Assembly: GCA_905250025.1 (NCBI GenBank)
Contig: CAJNOJ010000256.1
Span: 62,001-126,000, forward strand
Source of the DNA: Adineta ricciae
Taxonomy: Eukaryota > Rotifera > Eurotatoria > Adinetida > Adinetidae
DNA length: 64,000 bases
Direction: 5' to 3'
In this document: positions 10,193 to 53,702 of the stretch, piece after piece
Position numbering within the stretch: the first letter of the stretch is position 1
How the letters are laid out: every line of letters begins with the position of its first letter
Notes under the pieces: model-generated
The model's database searches: none
The model's input: only the letters and a program-made list of their open reading frames with translations
What the model was told of the DNA's origin: nothing
Position numbers and translations under genes: made by a program

Positions 10193-12136
10193 CTACAACC
10201 ATAAATACAATTTTCCATTAAAAACTTTAAGAACATAATCACGAAGAAGCTTTTTTGATTTAATCAAACTTTGTAATGTTCTCACTAAGTCATTACGTTG
10301 TTTGGAAATACATAAAGCAGACAAATGGCGCGCATTTGTAAGTAAATATTGAGCTATAGGTTTCAAATCTGGAAAAAATAAATTAATCGTAAGATCTTCC
10401 ATACGAGGAAAAGCGGCAATGACCAATCGCATTTTTTCTAATGTAATCTCTTTACTGATGGTTATCTTTCGTACTGAATTGGCTTTTGATACCGACTGAA
10501 AGACTTCATTTCGTTGAATTGAACTTGCATCAGCTCGATAAAGAACTATAGAATCGAGTGTCAACGTCTGGACATTCGTTGTAAACCGAAAAAGTTCGAT
10601 CAATTGATGAAAAGCAAAATGATGACATTGGATCGATAAGTTCGTCAGTTGTTGCAGTGGAAAAGCGCGATTTAAGCCATTTACAATCGGTAGCCGTGGT
10701 ACTTCAAAAGTTTCGCACAGTGTTAGCTTAGTGGCATATGGAAATTGACCTATAGGTTTGTCGAATATCGATGTCCGATGGACACAAATATGATGAGTAG
10801 GATCTGCATTCAAATCAAAACGAGTTGACCAGATATTTTCGGTTAGTTCATCATGTAGTACATAGTTTTTCCTTCTAAAAATAAACACTAGATGAGAATC
10901 ATATTGGAAAAATTCGACTTTACTGGTAGGGATTTCGTGAGTAGAAGATGACAGCGTTGGACCATGTCTTTTTATGATAATGCCGATCGAAGAACCATTG
11001 TCGATCGGTCCAAAACTTGGCATTAAACTTATTGGTTAGAGTTTCAAATGTTTGATACTCAACATTGTAATCAATGCCACGGTATGAATATCGGAAATCA
11101 AAAACACGTAAGTTCGGCATAGAACTTGTGATTAACCGTTGCCATCGAGTTGCATTGATAAATTCTCGATCGTCGAGACCAAATCCAATAAACTGTACTT
11201 CAACGTTTAAAACGTCTACTTGATGAAAACAATTGCTAACTAAAGCCTCGAATTCATCAAAAGAAATATTGCGATGGACATTCGACTTGAGAGAAACGTT
11301 TATTAGATGAGGTAAGCTAATAGAACACTTTCCTATTAGATTAGTTCTCGATTCTTTCAAATTGCCAATCGATAGACGACGTATTTGCGGAACGCAAGGT
11401 AAAAGAATAAACAATTGATCAATTGAGATCTCATGATTGATAACAAAATGTTCGATATGTGTAGCAGCAACGAATGATTTTGGACATTGTAATGTTTCGA
11501 TACATATTTCGCAATATTTCATATTCGGTAAAGGCAATAACTTTGCATAAATATTACTCTTGTCGGTAAGATGGTTAATCGACACGAGGGTCAAGGAAGA
11601 TAAAACAGGTAGAGACTGCAAGTGAATGAGAAGCTTTTCGACATGGTTCGCATCGATATGATTGAGGACAAGTGTTGAAAGTTGAGTGAATTTCTTCATC
11701 AACGGAACAAATAATGAACATAAATCGATGCATGGATTCGATAAGCGAAAGGATTCGATTCGAGAAGTACAAGGTTTGATGATTTGTGAGACGTAATGCT
11801 GAAGAGCTGCTTTCGATATCGATGAAATATTGATGTGAATTGGAAAATTCGAATGAAGAAAAAGACTTTGAAATCGATTGTTAAGATCATAAAAGGCTTG
11901 AAATGCATGATGATCGAGAAGATAATCGAAGATTTCGTAGAAAAGTTCATTGGAAAGATCTTCGAGTGAAGAGATACGCTTGTGACTTGATAAATTGGTT
12001 TCAATTGCTGATGCTAGAAAAACAAAGAAATACAATCCTACAAGATTCGAATCGGAATTTTACTGTCTGATTTTTGTCTTTTGTTGTTATTATAATCGAC
12101 AGAAGTATCAGTTCGTGGTCGTTTATTTCGTCTCAT
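10193..12136 (-). CDS. F-box and leucine-rich-repeat-like protein
   Basis: Three exons: 12136-12064, 12013-10924 and 10874-10193. Introns are GT-AG, 50 and 49 nt; phases agree and give 614 residues. The start is the ATG of MRRNKRPRTD, a basic leader that resembles a nuclear-localisation signal. The F-box follows at about residues 35-75 (LEDLSNELFYEIFDYL). The remainder is a long irregular LRR-like region (LSTLVLNHID, IRRLSIGNLK, LTNLSIQCHH). Known F-box proteins recruit targets to SCF ubiquitin ligases through Skp1, while the LRR part binds the substrate. The second intron explains an apparent frame change near 10900: the codon split at the border reads NPYQ-RKNY. A second, truncated allele lies at 15816-16193. 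Confidence 0.8.
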
Positions 12137-12352
12137 TCTAAAAATCGAAAGAATAAGTGTTTGTTTGAAATCGCGAAAAGAGAAAATGAACATGCACGTC
12201 GATTTATTTCGATATATATATATAGATACATACGCAGAACGAGCAAGAAAATCGTACAGAGAGAAAGTAGCAGAAGTCGGTCGTCAGCAGTGAATCGAAC
12301 GCGATTAGGAGCTATTCTATCTATTCGTATCTTGTGACTTCTGTCGTTAATT

Positions 12353-13780
12353 CTAATCTCTTTGACTATTGTGTCGTTCATTTGCAGAAGTGGAGGAGAT
12401 GCGTGTAGACATCCCATTATTCAAGATAACATAGACTGGTTCTGGCGGTGGAAGCAGAGGAGCAGGACCTGGTGTAGGAAAATTCTCGCCAAGTTCTTTG
12501 ACATATTGTTCAACATTATTCATATAATGTGCCATTTCTTCCTTTTGATCGTGTCTGATGGCAAATGCTTTGAAATAAACATCTACTTCGTCTGGACTTG
12601 GTGTACGGTCTGTTGGAGATTGGTTTTCTGCTAACATCAGACGATACATAGTAAGGACGTTGATAACGTGTGCGAGCGTAGGCATAGTCATGAAATCCGA
12701 AGAGAGTAGCGCCTCTCCGCCTGACAATAGATACAAATGGCTCATTGTCCAAGGAAACCACTCCGACTGAATCGCTACGTATCCATGTTCAACGTGTTCG
12801 CCGAAGTTGTTATAATCATTATGTTGCTTGATCCAGTCTTCAATTGTGAATGGCCCGTCAGAAGAAGAGTTAATAGCATACGCCGGATCGATGACCATTG
12901 GCCCTTTATCATCGATATTCACACATAAGGCAACATGTGGTATTCGTATAGAATCCAGAAGAGAAATCATATTTCTTCGAAAAGGTACCCGAAAACCATT
13001 AGACGTTTCCATATAAAATGGCCGATATAGAGAAGCGTAGTAGTCGGGCCTGTTCATCTTAGAGGACGACCTAGGAGATCCTTGGAGTCCGATGAACGAT
13101 ATGTAGGCTAGCGCTCCAGATGCTCCTGGAATTTCAGAACAGATTGTTTCGCCCATTGCACGCATCAGTACTGCACGATACGCACAAATTGCATCACCAT
13201 GCGCTTCATGCCAATGGTAGAGTGGATGATTCTTGATGGTTGTATAGATACCGTCGACTAGATCTTTTCTCATACTACTGCTAAAGCAACTCCTTCTACT
13301 TGGATCATAGTTGATAGACACAGATCGTGTTTTCACATCTTCCGTTGGGTGAAGTACGACTTGTATTTGCAAGAGATTGGAGCGTTTTGAAGATGGTTTT
13401 TTTGTTAAAAAACTCTCATTTTTCTTCTTCGTCGACGATTCATCGGTGCTTTTGTGTACGTTAGACAAGATTTTGCTCATACATTTGTAATATTTTATGA
13501 AACACACACGTCCATCTTCATCGGCATCCAATTGATGCAATAAATGTTCAATAATTGGCTTTATTGATTGTCGATTTGCTTTTATCAAACATCTCTTTAG
13601 TTGATCTTTGCGGATGTAACCAGTTCTATTTCGATCAAGCTCTTGAAAAAAACGAACTATTTCCAATAACTCAGGTTGTTTGCCTACGGACACAAAAGGC
13701 ACGACGTTGTGACAGTTATCAATGTGTTTTCGTTGCATTACTTCGATATTTGATTTGTGTAATGTATCTAGCATTCCCAT
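12353..13780 (-). CDS. EF-hand protein with an unrecognised C-terminal domain (haplotype 1)
   Basis: Single exon, 475 residues, in-frame ATG. Two EF-hand loops are visible: DRNRTGYIRKDQ (residues 49-60) and DADEDGRVCFIK (85-96). Both are calcium-loop shaped but have Gln and Lys instead of Glu at the twelfth position, so binding may be weak. A Ser/Lys-rich linker follows. Residues about 135-440 form a large unknown domain with GDAICAYRA (Cys199), PHVALCVN (His282) and VIDPAY (Asp298). The order Cys-His-Asp in such contexts is typical of papain/transglutaminase-like folds, so a hydrolase is possible but unproven. The tail is proline-rich. It lies 216 bp upstream of the F-box gene on the same strand. 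The allele at 16402-17823 conserves all these residues. Confidence 0.75.
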   Translation of the reverse strand: MGMLDTLHKSNIEVMQRKHIDNCHNVVPFVSVGKQPELLEIVRFFQELDRNRTGYIRKDQLKRCLIKANRQSIKPIIEHLLHQLDADEDGRVCFIKYYKCMSKILSNVHKSTDESSTKKKNESFLTKKPSSKRSNLLQIQVVLHPTEDVKTRSVSINYDPSRRSCFSSSMRKDLVDGIYTTIKNHPLYHWHEAHGDAICAYRAVLMRAMGETICSEIPGASGALAYISFIGLQGSPRSSSKMNRPDYYASLYRPFYMETSNGFRVPFRRNMISLLDSIRIPHVALCVNIDDKGPMVIDPAYAINSSSDGPFTIEDWIKQHNDYNNFGEHVEHGYVAIQSEWFPWTMSHLYLLSGGEALLSSDFMTMPTLAHVINVLTMYRLMLAENQSPTDRTPSPDEVDVYFKAFAIRHDQKEEMAHYMNNVEQYVKELGENFPTPGPAPLLPPPEPVYVILNNGMSTRISSTSANERHNSQRD

Positions 13781-15332
13781 TTTATACCTCTAATTTGCCA
13801 TGCGTGCAGAGAAAGAACGTGTGTTAGTTGTAACTATTAGAAAATGATGTGGACATTTCACCAATGACATCATCGACGGTATGAACTATGTGTTCTTCAG
13901 TGGTAGAAGAAGTGCATTTTGTTTTTTATAGTATGGATGAATTTGGCCGCGATGGCAATTATTTCGATTCGATTTAGTTTCTCTCTCGGTGGTGAAGAAT
14001 GGTAATATGAATAAGATGATGGAAGCAAAGAAGTAAAAGGGTTTATTAGATAAAGGCAAATGTAGTTGGCACGACGTTGCCTTTGCATACATCTATGGAA
14101 AAATATGACAAAACACTTATGCGCTATAATGATCGACATAACGACTGTTGATGCGTTTATGACAATAAGAAAATCCGATAAGTATTTTTATCTGGAAGTG
14201 CAAAACCGATACGGGACAAGAAGAATTTGACATTCGGCTGCCGACATCAAATAATCGGTTCCTCGAGTTTATTTGAGATCAAAATCTCTTCCCAATGCTT
14301 TTGTTCTTCTGTACGAAAATCAATATTTTATGCCCTTTCGATCCTTTCCATTATTATTATTAGCTATGGCATCATGTTTCAATTGAAGCACAAGATTAAA
14401 TATGGAATCCTATTCCTTTCTCTTTATTTGTACATACAAGGTAGCGAGTGTTGATTTTCTTCGATTATGTCATGTCATCTTGGTTTCGTATGAAAAGGCA
14501 CTATACATATGTCACGCTTCTCCATTGGACACGATTGTTCGCACGCCAGTTTTAGCAACTATCCGTTGTTGAACGACGCTATCGGTCAGTTTCTCACCTT
14601 CCATTCTGATCTCATCCGAACAATCTTACTTTATATAAATTAATTTAGTATTCACATGGAAGGTACACTGTTGGTTATAGTATTAATATTTTCCACTTGA
14701 AGGACACATTTTCTTTACGTGTATTATGGATACAGACGAAGCATTTTGTCTCCAACGTGATGGAGAATATGAGGAAAATCAGGCAAATAATGCCATTTTC
14801 TGAGCGCCTGCTTTTCTCTGGTTCTATTTCCCTGTCTTCGGCTATACATCACGCAACGTAAGTCATTTCAATCCGGTAACTACAACTTCTTCCTAACACG
14901 AAAAGTATATAATCAACGTCCGTATTTCACCCGGCACCTATGCAACAATGGTAATTAGTCAATCGATCGCTTTCGTATTTCCTAAGCTCAATATTAATAT
15001 TTGTAGTTATATCCATTCGATTATTCATTCAATCGGCATATATCAAATCCATCACATTTTCCCTAAGATTCCTCCATAAAATCTAAGTACAAAAAAGATC
15101 GTCCTAAAACACTACGAATAGTATCTTTTGATATTTTTCTTTTTTTCAGAGGAAACTACCGGTCATTTTCGAAAAGCATTACCACATCTTGTTCATTTAG
15201 ACGTATGAGTAAAAAATTTGCTCATCAAAGATACATCGGACGTGATGTACATGTCTTTACATATAAGAGCGATTAAAATGACAAATAAATTTCACATTAC
15301 AATATAAAATACATTTGATTGCTTTCTTATCT
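13781..15332. other. Intergenic region with haplotype-specific indels
   Basis: No supported gene. The counterpart at 17824-19025 is collinear but lacks about 300 bp (around 14041-14349) and about 50 bp near 14940-14990. Outside those gaps the two copies agree closely, including patches such as gttgaacgac. Short frames here do not stay open in both copies, which argues against coding. Confidence 0.55.
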
Positions 15333-15814
15333 TTATGTACTGCTGGATCTTAAATTTTCTAAAGACTTCTTAATTCGTTTTATGCCTGTAGGAGAAACTA
15401 ATTTCATAGTTTGTAACAAATTCAATGCTTTTATAAAACAATTACGAGCCAACACTTTATCATTGTAATGTACATAAATATTTCCAAATAATTCGTAATT
15501 GTCCACCATTGAAGAATGTGTCGTTGAATATGATGAATTTTTAGCTATTTCAATTGATTTATGACAATATTCATAAGCTGTATCGTATGCAGCACACATG
15601 TAATAACAATATCCCAATTGATTGTTTAAAAATATCATTTCCGATTTTCTATCAACTGCAGTATGATTTTCCTGTATTTCTAATGCTTGTTGAAAATGTT
15701 CAATAGCTGAATGATGTTTTTCTTGTTGACCGAAAGCGTGAGCAGCAGTTATATGCAAACGGTACAGAGAAGGATGGCTTGATATTTTCATACTCATAAA
15801 GAATCCTAAAGCCA
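15333..15814 (-). CDS. ART-TPR gene, 3' end only (haplotype 1, cut by assembly junction)
   Basis: The frame matches the last about 160 codons of the complete gene at 19026-23231 and ends at the same stop. It includes TPR helices such as AIEHFQQALEIQE. It lacks three codons (Gln-Asp-Asn) found in the other copy and has a few substitutions. At 15815 it stops at an 'n', beyond which F-box gene sequence begins. The truncation is therefore likely an assembly boundary, not a broken gene. Confidence 0.75.
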
Positions 15815-15815: not shown

Positions 15816-16193
15816 TTCGAGAAGTACAAGGTTTGATGATTTGTGAGACGTAATGCTGAAGAGCTGCTTTCGATATCGATGAAATATTGATGTGAATTGG
15901 AAAATTCGAATGAAGAAAAAGACTTTGAAATCGATTATTAAGGTCGTAAAAGGCTAGAAATGCATGATGATCGAGAAGATAATCGAAGATTTCGTAGAAA
16001 AGTTCATTGGAAAGATCTTCGAGTGAAGAGACACGCTTGTGACCTGATAAGTTGGTTTCAATTGCTGATGCTAGAAAAACAAAGAAATACAATCCTACAA
16101 GATTCGAATCGGAATTTTACTGTCTGATTTTTGTTTTTTGTTGTTATTATAATCGACTGAAGTATCGGTTCGTGGTCGTTTATTTCGCCTCAT
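15816..16193 (-). CDS. F-box protein, 5' end only (haplotype 2)
   Basis: Exon 1 at 16193-16121 and the first 255 bases of exon 2 (16070-15816) match the gene at 10193-12136, with scattered substitutions. The intron has the same position and length. The F-box core is kept (LEDLSNELFYEIFDYL). The gene is cut by the 'n' at 15815 after the segment containing IIKPCTSR. It is probably the allelic copy, not a second gene. Confidence 0.75.
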
Positions 16194-16401
16194 TCTAAAA
16201 ATCGAAAGATTAAGTGTTTGTTTGAAATCGTGAAAAGAGAAAATGAATATGCACGTCGATTTATTTCGATATATATATATACGCAGAACGAGCAAGAAAA
16301 TCGTACAGAGAGAAAGTAGTAGAAGTCGGTCGTCAGCAGCGAATCGAACGTGATTAGAAGCTATTCTATCTATTCGTATCTCGCGACTTCTGCCGTTAAT
16401 T

Positions 16402-17823
16402 CTAATCTCTTTGTCTGTTGCGTCTCTCATTTGTAGAAGTACAGGAGATGCGTGTAGACATCCCATTACTCAAGATGACATAGACTGGTTCTGGTGGTGG
16501 AAGAAGAGGAGCAGGACCTGGTGGAGGAAAATTCTCGCCAAGTTCTTTGACATATTGTTCAACATTATTCATATAATGTACCATGTCTTCCTTTTGATCG
16601 TGTCTGATGGCAAATGCTTTGAAATAAACATCGACTTCGTCTGGACTTGGTGTACGGTCTGCTGGACATTGGTTTTCTGCTAACATCAGACAATACATAG
16701 TAAGGACGTTGATAACGTGTGCGAGCGTAGGCATAGCCATGAAATCCGAAGAGAGTAGTGCCTCTCCGCCTGACAATAGATACAAATGGCTCATTGCCCA
16801 AGGAAACCACTCTGACTGAATCGCTACATATCCATGTTCAACGTGTTCGCCGAAGTTGTTATAATCATTGTGTTGCTTGATCCAGTCTTCAATTGTGAAT
16901 GGACCGTCAGAAGATGAGTCAATAGCATACGCTGGATCGATGACTACTGGCCCTTTATCATCTATATTCACACATAAGGCAACATGTGGTATTCGTATAG
17001 AATCCAGAAGAGAAATCATATTTCTTCGGAAAGGTACCCGAAAACCATTGGACGTTTCCATATAAAATGGCCGATATTGAGAAGCGTAGTAGTCGGGCCT
17101 GTTCATCTTAGAGGACGATCTGGGAGATCCCTGGAGTCCGACGAACGATATGTAGGCTAGCGCTCCAGATGCTCCTGGCATTTCAGAACAGATTGTTTCG
17201 GCCATTGCACGCATCAGTACTGCACGATACGCACAAATTGCATCGCCATGCGCTTCATGCCAATGGTAGAGTGGATGGTTCTTGATGGTTGCATAGATAC
17301 TGTCGACTAGATCTTTTCTCATACTACTGCTAAAGCAACTCCTTCTACTTGGAACATAGTTGATAGACACAGATCGTGTTTTCACATCTTCCGTTGGATG
17401 AAGTACGACTTGTATTTGCAAGAGACTGGAGTGTTTTGAAGGTGGATTTTTTGATACAAAACTCTCATCTTTCGCCTTCGTCGATGATTCATCGGTGCTT
17501 TTGTGTACGTTAGACAAGATTTTGCTCATACATTCGTAATATTTAATGAAACACACACGCCCATCTTCATCGGCATCCAATTGATGCAGCAAATGTTTAA
17601 TAATTGGCTTTATTGATTGACGATTTGCTTTTATCAAACATCTCTTTAGTTGACCTTTGCGGATGTAACCAGTCTTATTTCGATCGAGCTCTTGAAAAAA
17701 ACGTACTATTTCCAATAACTCAGGTTGTTTGCCTACGGACACAAACGGCGCGACATTGTGATAGTTATCAACGCGTTTTCGTTGCATTCCTTCGATGTTT
17801 GATTTGTGTAATGTATCTAGCAT
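16402..17823 (-). CDS. EF-hand protein with an unrecognised C-terminal domain (haplotype 2)
   Basis: An intact single-exon frame of 473 residues, homologous over its full length to 12353-13780. It starts two codons later because the upstream ATG is shifted out of frame. Both EF-hand loops and the candidate Cys (GDAICAYRA), His (PHVALCVN) and Asp (VIDPAY) are retained. Differences are scattered, many of them conservative or synonymous, as expected for two alleles under selection. The proline-rich tail is also conserved, and the gene sits directly upstream of the truncated F-box copy. Confidence 0.75.
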   Translation of the reverse strand: MLDTLHKSNIEGMQRKRVDNYHNVAPFVSVGKQPELLEIVRFFQELDRNKTGYIRKGQLKRCLIKANRQSIKPIIKHLLHQLDADEDGRVCFIKYYECMSKILSNVHKSTDESSTKAKDESFVSKNPPSKHSSLLQIQVVLHPTEDVKTRSVSINYVPSRRSCFSSSMRKDLVDSIYATIKNHPLYHWHEAHGDAICAYRAVLMRAMAETICSEMPGASGALAYISFVGLQGSPRSSSKMNRPDYYASQYRPFYMETSNGFRVPFRRNMISLLDSIRIPHVALCVNIDDKGPVVIDPAYAIDSSSDGPFTIEDWIKQHNDYNNFGEHVEHGYVAIQSEWFPWAMSHLYLLSGGEALLSSDFMAMPTLAHVINVLTMYCLMLAENQCPADRTPSPDEVDVYFKAFAIRHDQKEDMVHYMNNVEQYVKELGENFPPPGPAPLLPPPEPVYVILSNGMSTRISCTSTNERRNRQRD

Positions 17824-19025
17824 TCCATTTATATACCTCTAATTTGCCATGCGTGCAGAAAAAGAACGTGTGTAAGTTGTAACTATTAGAAAATGATGTG
17901 GACATTTCACCAATGACATCATCGACGGTATGAACTATGTGTTCTTCAGTGGTAGAAGAAGTGCGTTTTGTTTTTTATAGTATGGATGAATTTGGCCGCG
18001 ATGGCAATTATTTCGATTCGATTTAGTTTCTCTCTCGGTGGTGAAGAATGGTAATATGAATAAGATGATGTAAGCAAAGACGTAGAAGGGTTTCATTATT
18101 ATTATTAGCTATGTCATCATGTTTCAATTGGAGCACAAGATTAAATATGGATTTCTATTCCTTTCTCTTTATTTGTACATACAATGTAGCGAATGTTGAT
18201 TTTCCTCGATTATGCCATGTCATCTTCGTTTCGTATAAAAGGCACTCTATACAAGCCACTCTTCGTCATTGGACACGATTGTTCGCAGGCCAGTTTTAGC
18301 AACTATCCGTTGTTGAACGACACAATCGGTCAGTTTCTGACCTTCCATTCTGATCTCATCAAAACAATCTTGTTTTATTTAAAGTACTTTAGTATTCACA
18401 TGGAAGGTACGCTGTTAGTTATAGCATTAATATTTTTCACTCGAGCAACACATTTTCTTTACGCGTATTGTGGATACAGACGAAGCATTTTGTCCCCAAC
18501 GTGATGGAGAATATGAGGAAAATCAAGCAAATAATGCCATTTTCTGAGCGCCTGCTTTTCTCTGGTTCTATTTCCTTGTCTTCGGCTATACATCACGCAA
18601 CGTAAGTCATTCCAATTCGGTAACTACACCTTCTTCCTAACACGAAAAGTACATAATCAACGTCTGTATTTCACCCGGCACCTAAATATTAATATTTGTA
18701 GCTATATCCATTCGATTATTCATTCAATCGGCACATATCAAATCCATCAGATTTTCCCTGAGATTCCTCCTTATAATCTAAATACAAACAATCATCCTAA
18801 AACACTACGAATAGTATCTCTTCATATTTTTCTTTTTTTCAGAGGAAACTACCGGCCACTTTCGAAAAGCATTACCACATCTTGTTCATTTAGACGTATG
18901 AGTAAAAAATTTGTTCATCAAAGATACATCGGACGTGATGTACATGTCTTTACATATAGGAGCGATTGAAATGACAAATAAATTTCACGTAATAATATAA
19001 AATAAATTTGATTACTTTCTTATAT
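17824..19025. other. Intergenic region (haplotype 2 counterpart of 13781-15332)
   Basis: Collinear with the haplotype 1 stretch but shorter, through a deletion at about 18091 (or an insertion in the other copy) and a second one near 18682. I see no gene. Confidence 0.5.
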
Positions 19026-22000
19026 TTACATGCTGCTGGATCTTAAATTTTCTAAAGACTTCTTAATTCGTTTTAAGTCTGTAGGAGAAACTGATTTCCT
19101 GGTTTGTAACAAATTCAATACTTTCACAAAACAATTACGAGCCAACACTTTATCATTGTAATGTACATAAATATTTCCAAATAATTCGTAATTGTCCACC
19201 ATTGAAGAATGTGTCGTTGAATATGATGAATTTTTAGCTACTTCAATTGATTTATGACAATATTCATAAGCTGTATCGTATGCAGCACACATGTAATAAC
19301 AATATCCCAATTGATTGTTTAAAAATATCATTTCCGATTTTCTATCTACTGCAGTATGATTGTCTTGATTTTCCTGTATTTCTAATGCTTGTTGAAAATG
19401 TTCAATAGCTGAATGATGTTTTTCTTGTTGACCGAAAGCGTGAGCAGCAGTTATATGCAAACGGTACAGAGAAGGATGGCTTGATATTTTCATACTCATA
19501 AAGAATCCTAAAGCCAATGTACAATATTCAACAGACGACTTCCAATCTTCTAAATTACAGAAACAAAAAGCCATTTCAGCATACAAATCAACTACTCTAA
19601 TGTTGAACATGTTTTGCTGTGCTGATTGTCGTTCAGCTTTTTGAAAGTACTCAATAGCAGAAGGATAATTTTCCATTTTGTTATAACACAGTCCAATTCG
19701 GTAAAACAAGTCAAATATTAGCTTTTCATTTAAAAACGGTAACATTTTCAAACTAGATTCATAATGATCTATGGCTACGCCCCAAACTTCTTTCGCCTGA
19801 TACAATCGGGCAATTCTCCAATTTAGATCGGCCGTCTTTCGCCTTTCTCCAACATTCGGTTGAACAATTTCTAGGTATATTTTCAGAGCTTGTTCGTAAT
19901 AATCAAGAGATAAATCAGGTAAAAGTTTCTCTTGATAACATTTACCAATGCGAACATACGAGTCAGCAATATCACACTTCTTCTCTCCCGTATCTAGTTG
20001 AATGTTTAACATTTTTTGAAAATACTCGATGGCTAAGTCATACATGTTCTCATGTTGATGAAACCATCCTAATTCGAAATAAATATCCATTAATTGCATA
20101 AAATTATCGTTCGATTGATTATCTTCATAGACTCGAAGAGCTGCTTCAAAGTGACGAATACATAAATCATTTTCTTCTTTCATTTTATAACAAGTCCCAA
20201 TCTTATAATGAAATTGAGCAGTTTCTGTGGGAGATATTTGTTCTAGTATATTCAAACCTTTCACATAGGAATCGATAGCTAAATCATATTGATAATCTTC
20301 ACAATATGAATCGGCGACTATTTCATACATATATACACTGTCGTCGGATTCCTCAGCGCTTATCGAAGAATGTTTTTGAATCTCCACACATTCCCTATAA
20401 TAGGTGAGAGCGAAATCATCATTTTCTAATTCTGAGTAACATTTCGCGATCGAATAGGTCAAATTAAAGATGTCTTGTTCGTGCTGATCACTATTCAGAT
20501 TTCTAATGAAAGACAAGCCTTCCTTCTGCTTTTCAATAGCTAAAGTATACTCCTTTAACTCATAGTACAAATTCCCAATAGATTCGTAGGATTGAATAGC
20601 AAAATCGATTGAATACTTCTGATTAGATTCTGAAACACTGTCCAAAATTGCCTGATATTGATTAATAGCTAAATGATAATTTTTATCTTTTTCGTATAAC
20701 CACGCAATACGGGTATAGATGACCAAAATGAACTTGTCTTTCTCAGAAATATCCGATTGTATCTCGATATCCTTTAACATATATCTAAACTGTCGAACAC
20801 CCAATTGAAATTGTTTCGTTTTCAAATATATTAATGAAATACTCATTATAAGTCGATGGAAATCATTGTAACTTAGATGCCCATCAATGAATACATATTT
20901 CCTGTAGAAATTCGATAAAACTTCCATATTTTGCTCAGCATGTTCTTCATTGATCAGATAAGTCATAGTCGAGACATATTTCGAACAGGCTGTTTTCATG
21001 ACTTCGTAATTATTACATTCCATTGCTCTGCTCACTAATTTTGCATAATAGTCCATGCTTAGGTGGAATTTGCGTTGTTCGTCGTAAATTTCACCCATTA
21101 GTACATAGGAAATCTCGATATCTTCAATATTTGATGAAGATTTATTGATATTCAATGATAAATTAGCATGTTTAAGCGCTAAATCATGAGAATTTAACTG
21201 AAGATAACAGCATGCTATCGAAGCATGCAATCTACCGAGTTCTCCATCGTTTTCATTGTATTTTTTATGTTCCAATACGTCGAGATATTGATTCAGTGCT
21301 AATTGATGCATCCCAGCTAACTGATAAGCTTCGCCAAGACTGTGACATGTTTGTATTTGTAGCAGATGAGATCTCGAATAAATATTTTGTTGACAGACTA
21401 AAGCTTTTTGATAAGAGTCAATAGCCATGTCAGTATTTGATTGTTTTCGGAAAATATGACCCATAAGATGATAGATTTCCGCATTGGCAATCGAATTTCT
21501 CGTTTCACCAAACTTTTCCAATGCTTGTTGGCAATGTTCTAATGCATCAGAGTATCTCTTTTGTTTAAAATAACATCGACTCATACAGAAATGAAGTGCA
21601 CCAAGTAGCTGAACGTTACAATGATCAGATAAAGTACGAAACGCTTCTTCAACGAAATCGTATGCTAGTTGAACTTGTTCAATAGCTAGATATATCAAAC
21701 TTAACCTTAGTAAACTAGCAGCTATTGGCGTTGAATAATTATGACGAAAATTCTTCTGTGTTTCGTAAGACTCGAAAGCGTATTTCAAAGCGAAATCATA
21801 TTGTTGAATACCTCCATATGCATCCGCAAGATTTCCGGTGATAATATAAATTTCATAATCTCTTAGTAAGGGGTCCTTATTACATGCTAAACAGTTTTTA
21901 TACAACTCCTCATAATAAGCAATTGCCTTTTTATGGGAGCCAATAATTGACAGAAATTTGCCGAAAAACGAATGGGCATTAATGTTTGAAAGAACGTTAT

Positions 22001-25038: not shown

Positions 25039-25056
25039 ATGGAAAATGCAAAAGCA

Positions 25057-25416: not shown

Positions 25417-25429
25417 CTTCAGTTCATAT

Positions 25430-38940: not shown

Positions 38941-38946
38941 GCAACC

Positions 38947-40542: not shown

Positions 40543-40548
40543 TATAAA
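40543..40548 (+). promoter_or_regulatory. TATA-like box of the mucin-like gene (haplotype 1)
   Basis: tataaa lies about 70 bp upstream of the ATG at 40618. The same place in the other copy has tataaaaa (50273-50280). Confidence 0.5.
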
Positions 40549-40617
40549 CAGACGAGCATACAAGTCAGTTTTCATTTCATATTGTTTCAATCGAAACAAC
40601 AGTTATATACTAATACT

Positions 40618-42213: not shown

Positions 42214-43002
42214 TGCTATACTTTTGACGTTGTGTTCTGTAATATTTAGGATCTATTAGTCTTTTATAGGGTAGGTGAGAAACAGAAAATTGTATGAGTC
42301 ATCAAGGTAGCTGCGTGTCAAAGAAAAAAATGTCGATGAATCATCGCAAACGTGTATATTACCATGAGATTGTGCAAGTATGGGAAAAAATTACTCACAT
42401 GCGGCTGGGGATAGTTTTATTAAAATAAATCGCAATACCTGACTGACTCAACACTGATTCATCATACACTGGGTAGTATTATCTGTTACAATTTTTATGA
42501 GATAAAGCGACGTTATATTGTTTTAATATTTACATCGCCAAACGTGTCATAAATTATTATTCTCCATCGTTTATAACTTCTATATTTGTAGATCGATCAA
42601 TCATTCCGTACGTTTTACGCTATCAGCGACATTGAACAGTCAGTTTTTATTTATTTTAAAATAATTTATATGAAAGACTGTGCACTCTTCATTTTTTTCT
42701 GATTCAATGACAAGCAAACACTTTCGTTTATTTCACAATGACACGATCAGAAGCAATTGTATACACCCATTACTATGCGACTGTCGCGATGTGTTCGATT
42801 GTTGGCAGGGTAGAATAGATGCACGACAAAAGAGAATGTTGCTGATGTAACAAATTACTGTTTACATATATACACCTATACTCTGTTGAAAAGTAGAAAG
42901 AGCGATGAAAGTAGCTTACTTGTTGATCAGAAGTACTCTAACTCAATTGTTAGTAGTAGTCATTTACTCTTTCACTCGCAAAAGATTGACACTATTCATC
43001 AG

Positions 43003-44129
43003 ATGTCCGTGTCGAATTCTGTGCCGCATCGCTTTGCTGTGCCTAGAAGAGTAGGACAATGGTCGATTGAACAATTCTAGCACTCACTGTCGCTCTGATT
43101 TAGGTGCCAAACGCAACCTATACTTACGCACGCCCAACGATAGTGTCAGTTCCTCAGCCACTACAACCGCCACTAACGAGGATAGCTTATATTAACATAC
43201 TTCCAAGAGCGGTGCCAAGTGTTCACTCACCACCGGAACTTTCTGTTTCGCCTACGCTCTCTATATCGAAAGAAGCATTCATTGCCAAGGACGGCCTTTC
43301 AGAAACCGATTCATTTTGGACACGATGCTATGCGAAGTAAGCCATTTCTGTTTAGCAGCATCAAAGAAAATCTCTTGGGCGTGTTTCAGATGCGGTCTTT
43401 TTTGTTGCATGCCATGGTGTTGGACTATTTCAGCAGTAATCTTAGGTGGTGCCATTGGAACGATCATATTTTTTGCACTACAAAACAGTAAGCTAAAAAT
43501 AAAAATACCTTGTAATTGCTCCACATGTTTGATTATAATTAGCCGCTACGGTAACAACCGGAACACCAACGACAACCATCAGCAAGACGACCATCTATGT
43601 GCCAAGTCGTAAGTTCTTTCGCAAGAAAAACAAAAGGAAATTCTCTTAAAATTTTTATCTAGCGATATTGAACAATACCTGCACATCGGTAGTCAGTGAT
43701 TCACCTACTGTTCTAGTGTACCTCACAAACTCAACGTCGTTCTCCTATACGTTCTATCAATATACATATGTCGCTGCATCGACGATGACAACTATGATGT
43801 TAGCTATGCGTCAAAATCCTAGTTACTGGTGTCTCGATGATATTTCTGTAACCTACAATGGCGTACAAATGTGGCAAAATGGCGGTTTTGAATTGAGCCC
43901 GTTAACTAAATATTATACTTATTGTAATCCAAACGGGGCAGCTTCCAGCGGTAGTATATCACCATCATGTCCCAGATCTGGAAGCTATAGTTTTAAAGAC
44001 GGTTCAGTAACATATTCCGATTATATCAGTCAATCGTTTTCCACGGTAGTTGGTGGAATGTACAATATCAGTTTCTGGTTATCGAACTTAGGTGCTCCTA
44101 CGAATAGTTTTATTATCATCATCGGTTAA
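43003..44129 (+). CDS. Single-pass membrane protein with carbohydrate-binding-like ectodomain (haplotype 2)
   Basis: Exons: 43003-43050, 43104-43336, 43390-43487, 43543-43608 and 43663-44129, giving 303 residues. It has the same organisation as 32725-33878, with exons 1 and 3-5 of equal length. Exon 2 lacks ten codons in the Pro-rich cytosolic part (VHSPPELSVS against a longer haplotype 1 version). The TM helix and ectodomain blocks (WCLDDISVTYN, NGGFELSPL) are retained. Confidence 0.75.
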
Positions 44130-44230
44130 TGGACAGTTCTTGAACGTGACTGCTATAGAAGCAAATATACTCGATGATCAAACACAATGTTTATGATTCT
44201 TGTTTTATTGTTTGAATATTTTGAAAAATA

Positions 44231-46103
44231 CTACTGAAATATAACTCGAAATTTGATTGTGTGCCGCACGTCTCGTAGTCTTTCCTGAATGGTTGCTATC
44301 GTAACCAACGGGTGCACCATTTCTCCTTTTACTCGTAGCACGATGGTATTCAGTTGTCGACAACAATGCATTACTTGTTGCCATTGATACCAATCTAGCA
44401 ATTGTACTGCTTCAGCTTCGTTAACTACTAATTCAACATGTCGAAGATTGCACATGTTGCTAATCAGCTCAATTAGCGTTCTCCACAAGCACGACTGATA
44501 AGATCGTCGGCAACTGTCTGAATCTGGATTTGTATAATGATCAATTTCAAGTAAAAAGCGTTTGATTGTAATGTTTCGTGTGTCTTCTGTAGGGTTTGGA
44601 AGACTCCAACCATGTTTACATTTTGACTGGGTGCAATGTATTTCAAACTTTTTTACCGAGTTTGAAATGTGCCCGAAAATGTAATGGAATGCATACAAAT
44701 TGACCTCATCGGTGTACCGAAGTGACAGGCGACTTAGATCAGGAAAAAAGGCATTCCATTGTTCGATTTCTTTTATTGACTTAAGGTTGTCCAACGTTAG
44801 TGAAAGGACATTAGGAAGCATCGCCAAAGTGTTCGATATTTTCGTTATTGGAAACGTACTCGCATCAAAATGTACGGATGCGATTTGTTTTGGCCTGAGC
44901 TGCCGAAAAATCATATTAATAACACTCGTCGAAGGATTCGATAACTGCACTTTCATGTTGATTTCCGACAGTGTCGAAAGAATACTATCGTGGAAAGTGT
45001 TAATCATATCGTTGAGTGTCAAATATTGACAAATTTCCAAAATGACATCCCAGCAGAGATCATGTTGCTCGCGAAGGTCAAATGCCTACAAACGAAATAG
45101 ATACCGGAGTATGCATCAAAGAAGTGGGAAAGCTTTTCTATTTTGACCCACCAAGTCTTGTTCGTTCTTGTCAAATTTGTCTTTAAATTCGAGCAATTTG
45201 CGATATAAAATTTCACGAATCGCGGTATAATCAATTCCTACTACTGTATTATTTTTAATCATTTCTTCGAATACGTATTGTGACTGTCGGTACCAATGTT
45301 TGTTTGATGCTAGCCGTCGTGTAATACCAATAAACATAGGACATTTTTCCTTAGAAAAATCAAGCAACAATTCCGTCGGAAAGATCTCTTTCCACACTTG
45401 TACCAACCTATTTCAAGTATCATAGTCACGATCAAACTATTCTTAATGAATATTTACTTGTTGCGATTGCCTTCGATAGTGATATCCCAAGGCCATACGA
45501 GATAATTTTCCAATAAGTAATCAATGATTATTTCTGAACAGAAGACTTTTTTGCAAATCATATTGATCGTGTCGTTTTTGTCATGGTGAATGTAGACTAG
45601 TACTGGACGACGCTAAAAAGGAAGAAAACTGTTTTCTTAAGTGTGATAGCTAGACAAGCAGACGTCTTTTATTTCAAGTGGACTGAACGCTGCGTCACAA
45701 GTATCTTGNCAGAAGACTTTTTTGCAAATCATATTGATCGTGTCGTTTTTGTCATGGTGAATGTAGACTAGTACTGGACGACGCTAAAAAGGAAGAAAAC
45801 TGTTTTCTTAAGTGTGATAGCTAGACAAGCAGACGTCTTTTATTTCAAGTGGACTGAACGCTGCGTCACAAGTATCTTGTAGAGAGCCTGGAAAGAACTC
45901 TGGTCTGCAATTGTAACGTCTATAAAAACATGAAGCAAATGACTCAATAGCATTAGCGTCGTTTTGGTATTGTGTTGGTACTAGAATAAACATAAACAAA
46001 CTTTTACTTCTTAAATAAGGAGTAGACATCAACCTACTTGGACTAAGATTATCAAAAAAATTTCGTCGACATTAACATCATCACTCGTCGTTGTATCATT
46101 ATC
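44231..46103 (-). pseudogene. UAS/F-box fusion, haplotype 2 copy with a frameshift and an assembly duplication
   Basis: Exon 5 (45085-44231), exon 4 (45407-45152) and exon 3 (45612-45458) match the haplotype 1 gene exactly in length and phase. Exon 2 is interrupted by the 'n' at 45709, behind which 170 bases are repeated. After removing that repeat, exon 2 (45835-46103) is 269 nt instead of 270. One base is missing in an A-run near 46052-46058, which throws the N-terminal part out of frame and leads to a stop. The UAS domain could still be translated from an internal start. The single-base loss could be a sequencing error in the homopolymer. Confidence 0.6.
45539..45879. repeat. Exact 170-bp direct repeat around a single N
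   Basis: Bases 45539-45708 and 45710-45879 are identical, separated only by the 'n' at 45709. An exact repeat of exon 3/intron/exon 2 sequence at this place is best explained as two overlapping contig ends that were not merged. Confidence 0.9.
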
Positions 46104-46489
46104 CTACGGAATTACAGTAAGACAGATACGTACGTACGTCGTTATTTTATATTCATAGAAACATTACCATTGTGCTCGTTTCTTAGAAAAACATGTTGGA
46201 AATTTAAACCGCCGCTGATGTAATATAGTGTATGTTCCTCATATAGTGGGTTTTTTTCTTGGAAATGATGACATCATTTTTATGCCTTTTGCGTTCTCTT
46301 TTACCGTCTGTCGCTATCGACACGCGTAAATGTGTTTTTTCTCCCGAGTACTCTACGGCTTTCTTCCTATGCGTGAAGTGCTATCATCATTCATCGTAGT
46401 TTGCTTCTCAATACTTTTTACTGCACAGATCATGTTTTTATTCCAACCAACACTCTATATAATCTTTTTTTTTTATGATTCTGAATAAA

Positions 46490-47795
46490 TTAAGATTTGA
46501 TTTTATTCATTCTTGAGACAGAAGCTATACGAATGAACCGTCGTACAAGCGGTTCATTTTTCAAACTACGTCGCTCAACATCGTCTAAAGTCTTTCGATA
46601 GGTTTTGTATCGAATCTGTTGCCGTTCTTTCCAAGTTACGTCCATGCGGAAAAGATACTTCAATACGTCGAGAACGACGATAAAACCAGCAGCGATTGAA
46701 ATGGCGAGAATAGAAATAAACATAAAACTTTTAGCAACATATTGACGGACGATCACATGTGTTTCAATTGTTTCGCAATGCCGCCCAGAAATACCCGAAA
46801 AACATTCACATTTGTAATCAAGTAACAATGGCCGACAAACACCATTATTCATACATGTAACATTTGTACAATAGTTAATCGCGCTTTGACAGTGATCACC
46901 TGTATATCCTTGACTACAGTTACAGAAGAAACTTGTCAAATTCATTTCGATGCATCTACCTAAAGTAGAGAATGGAGTATTCGATAATTTGTCGTCAAAA
47001 CAGACTGTTGTAAAGACAAGTATCTGGTCTACAGATTTGATGATCGTATTCACAATTGCTACCATTAAAATTTGATAAACAACGACAGAAATATCCGCTT
47101 GTCAGACTAGAGTTTTTGATACATGTTCCATTATTCTCGCAAGGTTGAGTATTGCATAAGTTCACTGAAATATTGCAAAAGCTTCCGACATAACTTGAGT
47201 TACACTGGCTGGGAGTGAACGGGATACGCGGTGATGTACCTGTTGAGTATAGATTACATGGATCATCGTTAATTATTACTTGCACCTACTTGAATACGTG
47301 GTTGTCGACGCAGGTGAAGTACTTGAAGCTATAGAAGAAAAGGATATTTGATTCAATTACGATATAAGAATTACCTGAAACAGACGAAGATGAACATCCA
47401 CTTGACGAAGTTAAATATGCTATAATCGTAGAATTCAACTCAGGCCACCATGTATTACTGACCCATTTCCACCATACAAGATATTGATTTTCTTGATAAA
47501 TGATCCTGTTCCAATACACCAATCGTATAACATTTGATGTCAACCCAAGTACTTTTCCATTTATCTCGATTTTCCCATTAAGACGAATACCCCATTGGTC
47601 ATTATTTTTATCAGTAATAACATCTTTAGTTCCAACGAGAACAACCGCACCATTACAGGATTCTCCATTTACTGAACGGACAAAGGATTCACTAATACTA
47701 ATCTATATTATAAATGTATATACAAGCTTACCAAGAAGATCTCCATGAAAATAGAGACAGACAATTACGAGTAACTGAGTGCAAGAAGTTGACAT
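46490..47795 (-). CDS. EGF-repeat single-pass membrane protein (haplotype 2)
   Basis: Exons 47795-47375, 47328-47290, 47239-47006 and 46959-46490 align with the haplotype 1 gene at 36082-37372. Exons 1-3 have the same lengths. The last exon is 15 nt longer and ends ...RMNKIKS. EGF cysteines and the TM helix are conserved. In exon 1 a TAG (47703-47705) replaces the CAG of haplotype 1 directly after the signal-like segment, in the frame that is otherwise open. Unless a short intron removes it, this allele makes no membrane protein. Confidence 0.6.
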
Positions 47796-48048
47796 TGATC
47801 TGAGTTAATATTTTTTGAATGGAACGAGAGAATAGATACTACGAGCTTCTCTCCGCGAATACACTCTAATCAAATATTGATTGAAAATTGTCAGGAATCT
47901 GCACTCATAGCATGTAAAGATACGATGTTTTTTAGCATGGTCTTTTCAAACGAGAAATTAAGTTTTTTTTTCTTATTCAATGAATAAATATTACGGCAAC
48001 AGAAGTTTTTATTCTTTTTATTCTATACGCGTAGAAAACCATCTATAG

Positions 48049-48760
48049 TTAAATATTAGCGAGCACGTGAACAAACAAATAGGTAATATACGGACATCGG
48101 AGAATTAGGTTGTAATTAATCGTTTCAATTAGCTCAACAATTGATAGTCGTCGGAAATGCAGTTTCCCCTCTTTTGATAGAAATCGACAAGAGTGATTTC
48201 GCAGAACGCTATCTTCAAGACGAGCTAAATCGCTATTGCTCAAGTCAAGAAAATCAGCCTATTGAGTGTATGGACATTTACCATTACACGAGAAGATTTA
48301 TAGTACGAAATCCAATATGCTACAGCTAAGATCCTGGTTCAACAAGTACTAGACATTGCTGAAATCAATCCCCATTTACCAATGGTTGATGCCTGTCAGA
48401 AATTCATCTCGTTCATATGTGAAAATATGAATGATACAAACATCACAAAACGAAACTCGAAGTCCTCAACATTGTGTTCGTGCTGTGACCAACAAAAAGA
48501 AATAATGATAAGAGAAATAAGCGTATGTGGAACGAGTAACGGTTGAATTATGTAATTATTTGGGTATTCAAACCACTAGCAATGCCAATTTCGCTGATTT
48601 GATCACGTATTCAATGTGTATGTATGCTTATCGATTGCACATGCTCTTTCTTGTTTTGTTAATACTGCATGTGCATGAAATCGAACATTACCGAAAAATA
48701 TTTGAAAAAGGTATAAGATCTCAAATTCCTCAACAAACTAAGCGATAGAAACATCACTTT
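48049..48760. other. Decayed coding zone (haplotype 2)
   Basis: Counterpart of 37621-38400. Plus-strand fragments LLIEIDKSDFAERYLQDEL and RVTVELCNYLGIQTTSNANF remain in separate frames. No function is assigned. Confidence 0.4.
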
Positions 48761-49353
48761 TTTCCCCATAACTACTTGAATAGGTTGCCATTTCTAGAAG
48801 ATGAGGCTGGATTAATGCAAAAGAATGAAAATGCAGCAACATTTGGTTTCAAACTGATTGGATGAGACAAAAGAATCGAGCAGTATTCTGATGAAAACAT
48901 TGCATTGAGGAATAGATTTAATCCACGAGAAAAACAATGATTGTGATCTTTTACGATCTGTATCGTCTTCAATTGGAGAACATGAATTTCAAAATTAACG
49001 TATACCAACAAGATTATTCATTTTCTTATTCATCTTATCATCGACGATGCTTCTCCTGTACAATTCCTTTATTATTTTTATGTAAATAGACACTTCGAAA
49101 AGCCCGACTTTCAATGAGTACTACCAACCATTCCGATTATATTCCGACGCATTCTCGTATCCATGCAAGAAAATTGCAATTAATTATAAAAATATTCTTT
49201 GGGATTGACTATACATTGCAAGGCGTATGTTCCCTTGATCGATATATAGATTTTCGACAAACAGCTAAATTTCTCTTTTAAAGATTACACACACTTTGGG
49301 ACTTGGCTAATCAAATCAATATGTTACCGCAACCATGGCATCCTTGATGCTGT

Positions 49354-49818
49354 TTGAAACGCCCATTGATAACAAGCAATTTCCTTCTTTTATTCGACGT
49401 TGTACGATCATCAACGCACAGTAATACGCTCTTGACAGCTCTACAAACAAACTACTATCTGGAATACGACTTTAACAAAACGTCTCATCGTAGAGAGCCG
49501 CTACAATATTCCAAATGTTCTTGCAAAACATCTGGCAAATGCACCACGCAACATATAATCTCTAACAATACGAGTTTACCGCTCAGAATGACTATACCGG
49601 GCATTTGCTGTGGGTGTTATAATTTGGAAGTGCTTCCTCGACCGTCTCTCGAATGTTTCTATAATCAAGGATGCATGCAACACCTGCCATCATACTTAAA
49701 ATATTCTCTTCTCACTACGTTTCATCTCTCAACGCATCACCCTTATCATCAAACAAGTGCTCAGTTAACTCAACTATCGAACAATTCTTTCACGATCGAA
49801 CTTTTCATTAATCAATAG
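49354..49818 (+). pseudogene. Relic of a lineage-typical membrane protein family (haplotype 2)
   Basis: Homologous to 38947-39393, with the cysteine blocks CSCKTSGKC, IPGICCGCYNLEVL and LECFYNQGC. It starts later and lacks the following TM segment. About 0.6 kb present in haplotype 1 (about 39500-40150) is absent here. Confidence 0.5.
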
Positions 49819-50272
49819 ATCGTGATGAAGAAATAATACTGGTGTTATTGTAATCCGTGTCAGCCTATCGAAAACATTCATAAATACTAGAATATTTCTA
49901 TGAATAGTTGCAAACACATCGCACACTGTTATGTTTAACAAAGCTAGATTTTGAAAATCAGAAGAAATAACCTTCACATTGACGAAGTACATGTCAGTGT
50001 AAAACAAAAAAAGATGATTAGAAACAAGTGTTCCTGAACGCAGGTCATCTGTGGTACAGTGTGTTTATTGTGCATGAAAAAAAAATGGGTGGAAGTGATT
50101 AAAGCAAACAGAAAAAAGCTCTTTGTTTTGAGAGCTTTCTTTCATTAGTTGCGAAAGAAATCAAAGTGAAAATTCTGTTGTTGATACTCGAAAATTAAAT
50201 ATTTTCATAATACGCAAAACGAACGCACTTTTTCAGTTGAATGCTTACAGGTAAGATTGATTCACCTACGCA

Positions 50273-50280
50273 TATAAAAA
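50273..50280 (+). promoter_or_regulatory. TATA-like box of the mucin-like gene (haplotype 2)
   Basis: tataaaaa lies 68-75 bp upstream of the ATG at 50348, at the same position as the box in the other copy. Confidence 0.5.
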
Positions 50281-50347
50281 GGCGAGCATACAACTCAGTT
50301 TTCATTTCGTATAGTTTCAATCGAAACAACAGTTATACACTAGTACT

Positions 50348-51426
50348 ATGGTACAAACTGCGTGTCTTGTGTTGTTCCTATTGTGCATGTCATATAGCAT
50401 AATCGATGGCTCACATTTTCGTGGTGGTATTATTTCATGGTACGTCTCATTCACTATATTGTCTTATTACCATCCGTTTGTTATTTCTTTTCTTTTTAGG
50501 CGCCCGTTGAATAGTACACCATCGGGTAGCAGTGCGGATATTCTCATACATCAACGATACTTTTTTGATCGAAGAGCGGCCTATTTCGGTGGTGCACCTT
50601 ATTGTACGGAGGCAGATGTTACTGCTCAAACAACCATTCCGGTCGGTGGTACGATGAGCTGTATGGCAAATTGCTCAAGCTCTACTTATTCTGGACTTTC
50701 GATTGCTGTACAAACTACAGATTGTAACACGCTTCCAATTATTTCATCGTGGGGTGGTGAACGATACGACTTAGTATCATTGCCGTTGACAACATCGATT
50801 GCAATGGGCTTTGCCGGAAGTGCATGGTTGAGTGCTCTGTATGGCGGTGGTAATGGTTGGTCAGTTGTTAATCGATTGAACTTAGGTTTGAGACCCGATG
50901 GTTTTATCAATAGTAGTCCAGTGACAACGACGTTACCGGTGGTGTTTTATCCAATAAACACGCGAATTACTCATATTATACAAATGGCAGATAATGATGG
51001 TACTGACATATTACAATGTCGCTGGTCTAATTCAAATAGTGGAAGCAATTACAATCGAGCAGATGAATGTTCAGGTGTTTGCAGTGCATTGCCACCTGGA
51101 TATGTCTTAACTGGATCCAATTGTACTGTTTCTTTCACTCTGCCAACTGCTAATCTATATTATGCATGCTCCGTTCAAATTGAAGATTATTATAACAGTG
51201 CTGCTACAAGTCCAATGAGCTCTGTTCCAATCGTCTTTTTATTCTATGGATATGTAGCTTCTAGTACTGCATGTTCACAACGTCCTCAAATCATTGGTGT
51301 ACGACCAAACCGAGGTATGAACTAAGCTGAAATACTCATTAACTCTATTATTTCTTTTCATTTATTTTATTCTATAGCCTGTATTGGTGTTCCAATTGGT
51401 AAGTTTAGCTAATGAAGATTTTTTTT
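50348..51426 (+). CDS. Mucin-like membrane protein, first three exons (haplotype 2)
   Basis: Exons 50348-50439, 50500-51314 and 51378-51398 are in phase. The signal peptide is ACLVLFLLCMSYSIIDG. Exon 2 is a cysteine-containing ectodomain with blocks such as TIPVGGTMSCMANCSSS, ALYGGGNGWSVVNRL and ITHIIQMADNDGTDILQCRW. The copy is cut by the 'n' at 51427 inside intron 3. Residue differences from the haplotype 1 copy are scattered. Confidence 0.8.
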
Positions 51427-51427
51427 N
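51427..51427. other. Single-N assembly junction
   Basis: Right of it, 279 bases repeat exactly the end of the segment that stopped at 41139. It closes the inserted haplotype 2 block. Confidence 0.88.
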
Positions 51428-53702
51428 TCCACCTTATTGTACGGAGGCATATGTCACTGCTCAAACAACTATTCCAGTCGGTGGTACGATGAGCTGTATG
51501 GCAAATTGCTCAAGTTCTACTTATTCCGGACTTTCGATTGCTGTGCAAACTACAGATTGTAACACGCTTCCAATTATTTCATCATGGGGTGGTGAACGTT
51601 ACGATTTAGTATCATTGCCATTGACAACATCGATTGCAATGGGCTTTGCCGGAAGTGCATGGTTGACTGCTCTGTATGGCGGTGGTTCTGGTTGGTCAGT
51701 TGTTAATCGACTGAACTTAGGTTTGAGACCCGATGGTTTTATCAATAGTAGTCCAGTGACAACGACACTACCGGTAGTATTTTATCCTATAGCCACACGA
51801 ATTACTCATATTATACAAATGGCAGATAATGATGGCACTGACATATTACAATGTCGTTGGTCTACTTCAAATAGTGGAACTAATTACAATCGAGCAGATG
51901 AATGCTCAGGTGTTTGCAGTGCATTGCCAACTGGATATGTCTTAACTGGATCCAATTGTACAGTGTCTTTCACTCTACCAACTGCTAACCTGTACTATGC
52001 GTGCTCCATTCAAATTGAAGATTACTATAATAGTGCTGCTACAAGTCCAATGAGTTCTGTTCCAATCGTATTTTTATTCTACGGATATGTAGCTTCTGGT
52101 ACTGCATGTTCACAACGGCCTCAAATCATTGGTGTACGACCAAATCGAGGTATGAACTAAAACTGAAATACTCATTAATTCTATTATTTCTTTGCATTTA
52201 TTTTATTCTATAGCCTGTATTGGTGTTCCAATTGGTCAGTATCGCTAATGAAGATATTTTGTCTTTGTTCTAATCGCTTGAATTTCTATTTCAGGTGTTC
52301 AACTGAATGAAACAATAATTGTTGAAACATTTTGTCCCAACCAAGCTATTGTTGATTTCGTTACTAGTTCACCACTTGGAATGCAGCATAGCACCATTCT
52401 TAACCCAAGTGCTAGTACGTAATCAACCTTAAACAATAAGAATGGAAAAGCTTTGGAATCTAAAATTTGAAAAAATATTTTAGATACATGGACAATGGTG
52501 TTGACATGGACACCACAAGCGTCACAAGCTGGTCCGCAAGGTTTTTGTGCTGGTGCCGTCGACAATAGTAGTTTACAATCAGATCCATGGTGTATAACAT
52601 ATCTAGTTGACTATACATCACCAAACATCATCCGTCCTACAGTTGTCCAAGGATCTGCAAGTCCAGTCGGCACTGTCTTTGCAAATCAATCAATGTTTTC
52701 CATTCAAGGTGAGTCGGTTTGGTTGAGTTTGTGCGTTAATCGTTCATAATGGTTCTATTTTAGCAACAAGTTTAGTTGGTCGTCCAACTCGTAATAACAC
52801 AAACGTTTGCTTTCGTAATGCTACTTCGAACGCATCAGTTCTATGTTACGATGCTGGATATTCACCGAATGTGATCTACACAGGATACACCATTGTTATT
52901 GTTACAAATATCACATGGACAGCCGGTGCATTCTACTATGTAACAATGGATAGTGGTTTTGCAAGTGGAAGTGTATTTTGTCGTAAGTTATTTGATTTTA
53001 CGTGAAAACGAAATTAGTAGAATGACTTTGACTTGAAAAGATGCGGAGTCAGCACCGATCACAGATCCGACGTTTTGGGTATTCAATATTTGGAATCCGG
53101 CAGTTTCCAGCACGACCACAACGACGACGACACCCTTCACAACTGCAACAGTGACAACAAAACCAACATCAACAACCAGTATCAATACTCTTGTAAGTTC
53201 ATGTGTATATCATTGATATCTCATATTCGTTTATCTATTGATATAACTAGTTGACAACAACTGGTATTGTTGTAACAACAACAACACCTATCACAACTAA
53301 TGCAACAACGACAACTACATCACCTCCAACTACAGCTGGTGAGCAGGAATTTTTTACTATTGATACAATTTCAATTTTTCTTCTTTCTTTTTAGCTCCAA
53401 CAACAGCAGGTCCAACGACATCAGGCGCAACAACTGAATCTACAGTTGCTGTGATGTACCCCAAAGATTTCGTAAGTTACTTATCCACTTTCAAGTATGA
53501 CTAAACACATAAATCGATCGAATAGGAAGATGCTTGCAAACAAACTGTTGGCACTATGACAGCTGTCTTCTCAGTTGTATTGATGCCTGTTTATGCTTTA
53601 GCCATGTATGCTACATTCACCAAAGTGGCAAATACATTCAATCCTGTCAAGATTCAGGCCAATACTCGACACAAACTACGAATGAAACGCATTCTTCATT
53701 AA
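51428..53702 (+). CDS. Mucin-like type I membrane protein, remainder of gene (haplotype 1)
   Basis: The exons are: exon 2 remainder to 52149, then 52214-52234, 52295-52414, 52484-52708, 52764-52982, 53041-53192, 53251-53338, 53395-53471 and 53526-53702; all phases agree. With 40618-41139 the protein is 661 residues. The ectodomain has several Cys and N-glycosylation sites. The late exons form a Thr-rich stalk (STTTTTTPFTTATVTTKPTS and following), typical of an O-glycosylated mucin stalk. A TM helix (MTAVFSVVLMPVYALAMYA) and a short basic tail end it. The domain family is not recognised. It is probably a surface-coat or receptor glycoprotein. Confidence 0.82.

Follow-up and report, generated by a model that had tools for sequence, protein, structure and literature searches.

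A 64,000-base stretch of the Adineta ricciae genome (hereafter the window; bases 62001-126000 of the 146,178-base scaffold C256) consists largely of direct repeats separated by single ambiguous bases, an arrangement that with high probability represents false heterotype duplications, together with homotype overlaps, left by the scaffolding of two uncollapsed haplotypes. As such, it is almost certainly a known kind of assembly error and not biology. This reading rests on the collinearity of the copies, the divergence between them, the presence of an N between the copies of each long repeat, a copy number that almost nowhere in the duplicated sequence exceeds two, and the protein P0004 described below. 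The scaffold belongs to ARIC003 (GCA_905250025.1), an assembly of 135.6 Mb in 4,302 sequences with an N50 of 283.8 kb, an L50 of 129, and a GC content of 35.5% (PMC7943196). The GC content of the window is 36.4%.

Ambiguous bases in the window number five, all of them isolated Ns, and each of its large direct repeats is interrupted at one of them (Table 1). The sequence-only reading, which noted that the large repeats break at five single Ns, had named these same positions, and alignment places a repeat end at or near every one. On the left side, the copied stretch ends no more than 2 bases from the N at all five positions; on the right side, it begins no more than 2 bases away at four of the five and 45 bases away at 25416. 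At each of the five joins, the sequence steps back within the locus. Within the repeat that pairs 35289-41139 with 45710-50871, identity falls to 81-86% in a few short pieces located at 38.4-39.5 kb. In all, 45,705 of the 64,000 window bases have a second copy within C256. The pattern had been assigned to 11758..51706, and it is indeed present there, but its extent is wider, covering the whole of C256; for example, the copy of window positions 1-10965 is situated upstream of the window. A palindrome (84%) is located at 25430-25529, just after the N at 25416.

Table 1. Pieces, joins, overlaps, repeats, and genes of the window; haplotypes and false joins are named according to the reading favored in the text.
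Feature	Position	Strand	Remarks
Haplotype 1, piece 1	1..15814	+	starts upstream of the window at C256:56915; right end cuts the ART-TPR gene
False join, single N	15815	.	step back of 4,056 bases; next piece resumes at 11759
Haplotype 2, piece 1	15816..25415	+	19517-23158 without second copy in C256
False join, single N	25416	.	step back of ~2.26 kb
Haplotype 1, piece 2	25417..41139	+	27722-30863 without second copy in C256; right end cuts a gene in mid frame
False join, single N	41140	.	step back of ~10.3 kb
Haplotype 2, piece 2	41141..45708	+	
Single N between two haplotype 2 pieces	45709	.	170-base identical overlap; step back of 170 bases
Haplotype 2, piece 3	45710..51426	+	
False join, single N	51427	.	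haplotype 2 to haplotype 1; step back of ~0.83 kb
Haplotype 1, piece 3	51428..64000	+	extends to C256:132989; 52261-60279 without second copy in C256
Same-haplotype overlap	40861..41139 = 51428-51706	+	279/279 identical; end of haplotype 1 piece 2 = start of piece 3
Homotype overlap, haplotype 2	45539..45708 = 45710-45879	+	170/170 identical
Direct repeat	11759-14048 / 15816-18098		90-95% identity
Direct repeat	14346-15814 / 18091-19516		90-95% identity
Direct repeat	23159-25415 / 25462-27721		90-95% identity
Direct repeat	30861-35458 / 41138-45708		90-95% identity
Direct repeat	35289-37655 / 45710-48080, then in pieces up to 40143-41139 / 49872-50871		90-95% identity
Direct repeat	50595-51424 / 51430-52260		90-95% identity
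Complete ART-TPR open frame, haplotype 2	19026-23294	-	
ART-TPR fragment, haplotype 1	15336..15812	-	last 159 residues; cut by N 15815
EF-hand protein, haplotype 1 copy	12356..13738	-	identical to P0001, 461/461
EF-hand protein, haplotype 2 copy	16405..17787	-	91.8% identity to P0001

C256 carries 12 runs of N, all of length 1. Cutting the scaffold at these Ns yields 13 segments. Among these are 11 heterotype pairs, defined as collinear copies that overlap and whose substitutions exceed 2%; five further overlaps, 170-279 bases long, are near-exact. The resulting segment graph has two color classes with no conflict among the heterotype pairs, and these classes match the two collinear series into which the sequence-only reading had sorted the segments. 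Four of the five near-exact overlaps connect segments of like class; the fifth (99.5%) clashes with a 100% overlap at the same spot. When direct copies in other segments are counted (at least 78% identity), 112,201 bases of C256 have one other copy, 2,536 bases, in 13 stretches of 5-279 bases, have two, and 31,441 have none. No base has three other copies, and thus a dispersed repeat is ruled out as the cause. Copies lie within 60 bases on both sides of all five window Ns and of 7 of the 12 Ns in C256, versus none of 40 random positions, which rules out a chance meeting of Ns and repeat ends. Touches on one side only are frequent among random positions (8 and 22 of 40), because much of C256 is duplicated.

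The same pattern is seen beyond this scaffold. A survey took in 249,967 bases from seven scaffolds, divided into 25 N-free pieces; only 40,000 of these bases (four 10-kb stretches) are from scaffolds selected irrespective of their likeness to C256. Each of the 18 N runs surveyed is a single base long, and at thresholds of at least 300 bp and at least 85% identity, all 28 direct repeats (BLAST pieces, not independent events) have an N between their copies; in none of the 28 is there a tandem junction in gap-free sequence. Scaffolds C183 and C121 also contain tandem homologous copies around single Ns. Near-exact overlaps of 164 and 173 bases are present in C121 and C290, and homotype overlaps elsewhere than at 45709 measure 164-221 bases. 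Three Ns do not fit the pattern and count against the haplotype reading. At C256:8977 and C256:132990, both outside the window, homologous flanks are present, but the alignments end at a distance of 172-1,119 bases. With 3.4 and 6.6 kb of sequence available on its two sides, the single N of the stretch taken from C409 shows no flanking homology. Inverted sequences also meet Ns: C256:8664-8976, which ends at an N, is a 95% match to its own reverse complement, and C256:20660-20792, likewise ending at an N, recurs in inverted orientation at 32088-32220 (98%).

Aligned pairwise, as the earlier reading had proposed, the 11 heterotype blocks contain 3,326 substitutions in 57,110 aligned bases, or 5.82% (3.37-7.45% per block). 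The copies are therefore about as divergent as the two haplotypes of A. ricciae, for which an allelic heterozygosity of 5.5% is published (2.4% for A. vaga) (PMC7953838); the 2018 genome paper gives ~4% for A. ricciae (PMC5916493). This agreement, the presence of two copies, and the lack of any N-free junction all uphold the earlier view that two haplotypes laid end to end best explain the window. For five pairs of open frames, dN is 0.025-0.059 and dS is 0.10-0.24. Along the sequence, the variance-to-mean ratio of divergence is 2.96, above Poisson, and none of the 214 windows of 250 bases is free of differences.

At one of the five window joins, the N at 15815, the continuation beyond the join is found in another assembled contig, at the level of protein only. 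P0004, a full-length A. ricciae ART-TPR protein (1,398 residues), is assigned to a contig with a listed length of 36,823 bases. The fragment that is cut by this N matches residues 1240-1398 of P0004 without a difference (159/159), and overall P0004 shares 98% identity with the complete gene at 19032-23231. The EF-hand protein P0001 is likewise assigned to a contig of that length, although its source is not named; because of this shared length, P0001 and P0004 very probably lie on the same contig. Since both the fragment and the haplotype 1 EF-hand copy are identical to these proteins, haplotype 1 very probably continues past 15815 into an intact ART-TPR gene, the course that the sequence-only reading had predicted. 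A second long copy of the ART-TPR gene is absent from the 1,033 contigs (130,461,839 bases) of the assembly that were searched; thus, the 36,823-base contig comes either from another assembly or from contigs outside this set. P0004 and the haplotype 2 protein have 26 aligned differences, 17 at residues 558-857, 8 at residues 1328-1398, and one at residue 455, so that just one difference separates P0004 from haplotype 2 across residues 1-557 and 858-1327 together. Because the differences are clustered in this way, the contig encoding P0004 may switch haplotype upstream. A protein search with window positions 33980-34834 gave no match.

A simple series of steps would generate such an arrangement. 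The two homologous copies of a single bdelloid locus, ~6% apart, would have been assembled as separate contigs, and the scaffolder would then have set the contigs of both haplotypes in succession, in a zig-zag, with one N per join. Read links common to both haplotypes may have led to the joining of these contigs, and the single N would mark a join whose gap was estimated at zero or below. Scaffolders such as SSPACE insert a single N at joins of this type. A search for a statement of this habit, which took in passages of PMC6733440, found none, and section 17 and the first part of section 5 of PMC7943196 do not give the procedure used to scaffold ARIC003. Most of the repeats would thus be allele placed beside allele (false heterotype duplications), while the two exact repeats (170 and 279 bases) would be false homotype duplications, in which contig ends of the same haplotype are given twice. 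The sequence-only reading is widened by these same-haplotype overlaps, at 45709 and at 41140/51427. The 279-base overlap links pieces that are not neighbors because haplotype 2 pieces are inserted between them. A 98.2% copy of these 279 bases is present at C183:189611-189889 and ends exactly at the single N of C183. Contigs from two loci therefore break off at a common point, which is probably a shared repeat.

Real tandem duplication of multi-gene blocks along one chromosome, with gaps at the junctions since repeats assemble poorly, would also give a single scaffold with copies in direct order, and assemblies are indeed known to break at repeats. In addition, homologous blocks on one scaffold have been reported, with two tandem cases in A. 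ricciae and 2 tandem plus 23 palindromic cases in A. vaga (PMC5916493). Yet copies that differ by ~6% are easily told apart, and still every one of the 28 junctions contains an N. Staggered joins leave two copies of the duplicated sequence and hardly ever three, and copies on different scaffolds show the same identity as those within one (C129 and C74, 95%). Furthermore, the gene cut at 15815 is whole in P0004, with the same final residues, and exact overlaps of 279 and 170 bases link pieces of one series. Consequently, we consider tandem duplication extremely improbable. The same slight probability is given to homologous copies that are truly interleaved in tandem on one chromosome, in a region that is not divisible into two haploid sets.

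A different objection accepts the two series and holds that the copies are not the alleles of one clone but ohnologues from an ancient tetraploidy or variants among pooled animals. Bdelloids are degenerate tetraploids (PMC5916493), the DNA for ARIC003 was obtained from ~200 animals (PMC7943196), and some relatives of window positions 52200-59046, on C183 and C121, are 86-94% identical. Ohnologues of A. vaga, however, differ by a median of 24.9% (PMC5916493), and the relatives of 19500-23200 and 27700-30900 that lie outside C256 have identities of 70-79%, grounds on which ohnologous copies are rejected. The ~200 animals all descend from one individual (PMC7943196), and the 5.8% divergence matches allelic heterozygosity. 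We therefore regard this objection as a whole as very unlikely to be correct, if a little less so than tandem duplication. The reading as two haplotypes of one clone remains strongly favored.

Positions 20001-30000 of four other scaffolds (C129, C290, C409, and C171) were also compared with the rest of the assembly. With 4.5-kb pieces as queries, the C129 stretch has a copy on a different scaffold, C74 (95% over 4.5 kb), the C290 stretch has a copy on its own scaffold (94%), and the C171 stretch has no close second copy for the 4.5 kb searched. Parts of the C409 stretch, for which the query was ~10 kb and missing matches carry no meaning, match other scaffolds, chiefly C425 (93-96%), and another part matches C409 itself at 95%. 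From the placements for C129, C290, and C409, it follows that the two haplotypes occupy separate scaffolds in some cases and share a scaffold in others. The C183 relative of window positions 52200-59046 falls outside a simple two-haplotype tiling of C256 and thus argues against the favored reading. Here, 52261-59046, which is single-copy in C256, has a collinear copy of 86-94% identity at C183:208082-213789, the very end of that scaffold, and the adjacent C183:206715-208081 matches positions 50059-51426 of haplotype 2 at 93%. The end of C183 could represent the part of haplotype 2 that C256 lacks, wrongly attached to a different locus, or it could be a recent duplicate. Two more copies of window 40.6-53.7 kb (81-87%) are found, inverted, at C121:198319-213831, where they form a tandem pair around single Ns.

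Heterotype false duplication, in which divergent haplotype contigs are brought into one scaffold, frequently with gaps between them, and are taken for duplications, has been described by the Vertebrate Genomes Project [Rhie et al. 2021 (PMC8081667)]; its homotype counterpart consists of overlapping contig ends of about read length (PMC8081667). The marks of false duplication are half depth, gaps between copies, discordant pairs, and one-copy k-mers (Genome Biol. 2022, PMC9516828). C256 resembles the heterotype cases in having divergent haplotype contigs on one scaffold and, of the marks just named, in the gap between copies, which is present in 28 of 28 surveyed repeats. Unlike the vertebrate cases, it has 12 joins in a row within 146 kb, its gaps are single Ns, and the heterozygosity exceeds that of the vertebrates described (0.1-1.6%, PMC8081667). 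The near-identical overlaps at contig boundaries are those of homotype false duplication, as exemplified by the 170 bases across the N at 45709; unlike that class, the 279-base overlap joins non-neighboring pieces. The arrangement is also like the homologous blocks of Adineta described by Nowell et al. 2018 (PMC5916493), which are collinear, on one scaffold, and in direct order, often with gaps near the breaks. The same authors warn that some breaks of collinearity in bdelloid assemblies may be scaffolding errors. Their count was of blocks of at least five genes, and many blocks here are shorter and might escape it. Uncollapsed haplotypes in assemblies of A. vaga are the subject of PMC8178825.

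According to PMC5916493, the linkage of alleles on one bdelloid scaffold was formerly interpreted as supporting life without meiosis. C256 illustrates how such linkage can come from the scaffolding of uncollapsed haplotypes at ~6% divergence. False gene copies and cut genes are the result: the ART-TPR gene is interrupted at 15815, and another gene is interrupted in mid frame at 41140 and 51427. Consequently, the assembly needs to be unfolded or purged before gene families or tandem duplications are counted in it.

Repeats of other kinds are also present. Window positions 4762-4953 and 5437-5630 form an inverted repeat pair of ~195 bases (78%), with related copies on other scaffolds. A dispersed repeat of ~340 bases within C409 (L039:5107-5460) has at least 38 matches of 83-94% on many scaffolds, with scores for 39 of 473 candidates. 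Finally, a single open frame at 61072-62145 of the window encodes a kelch-repeat protein, and its internal DNA repeats are 67-75% identical.
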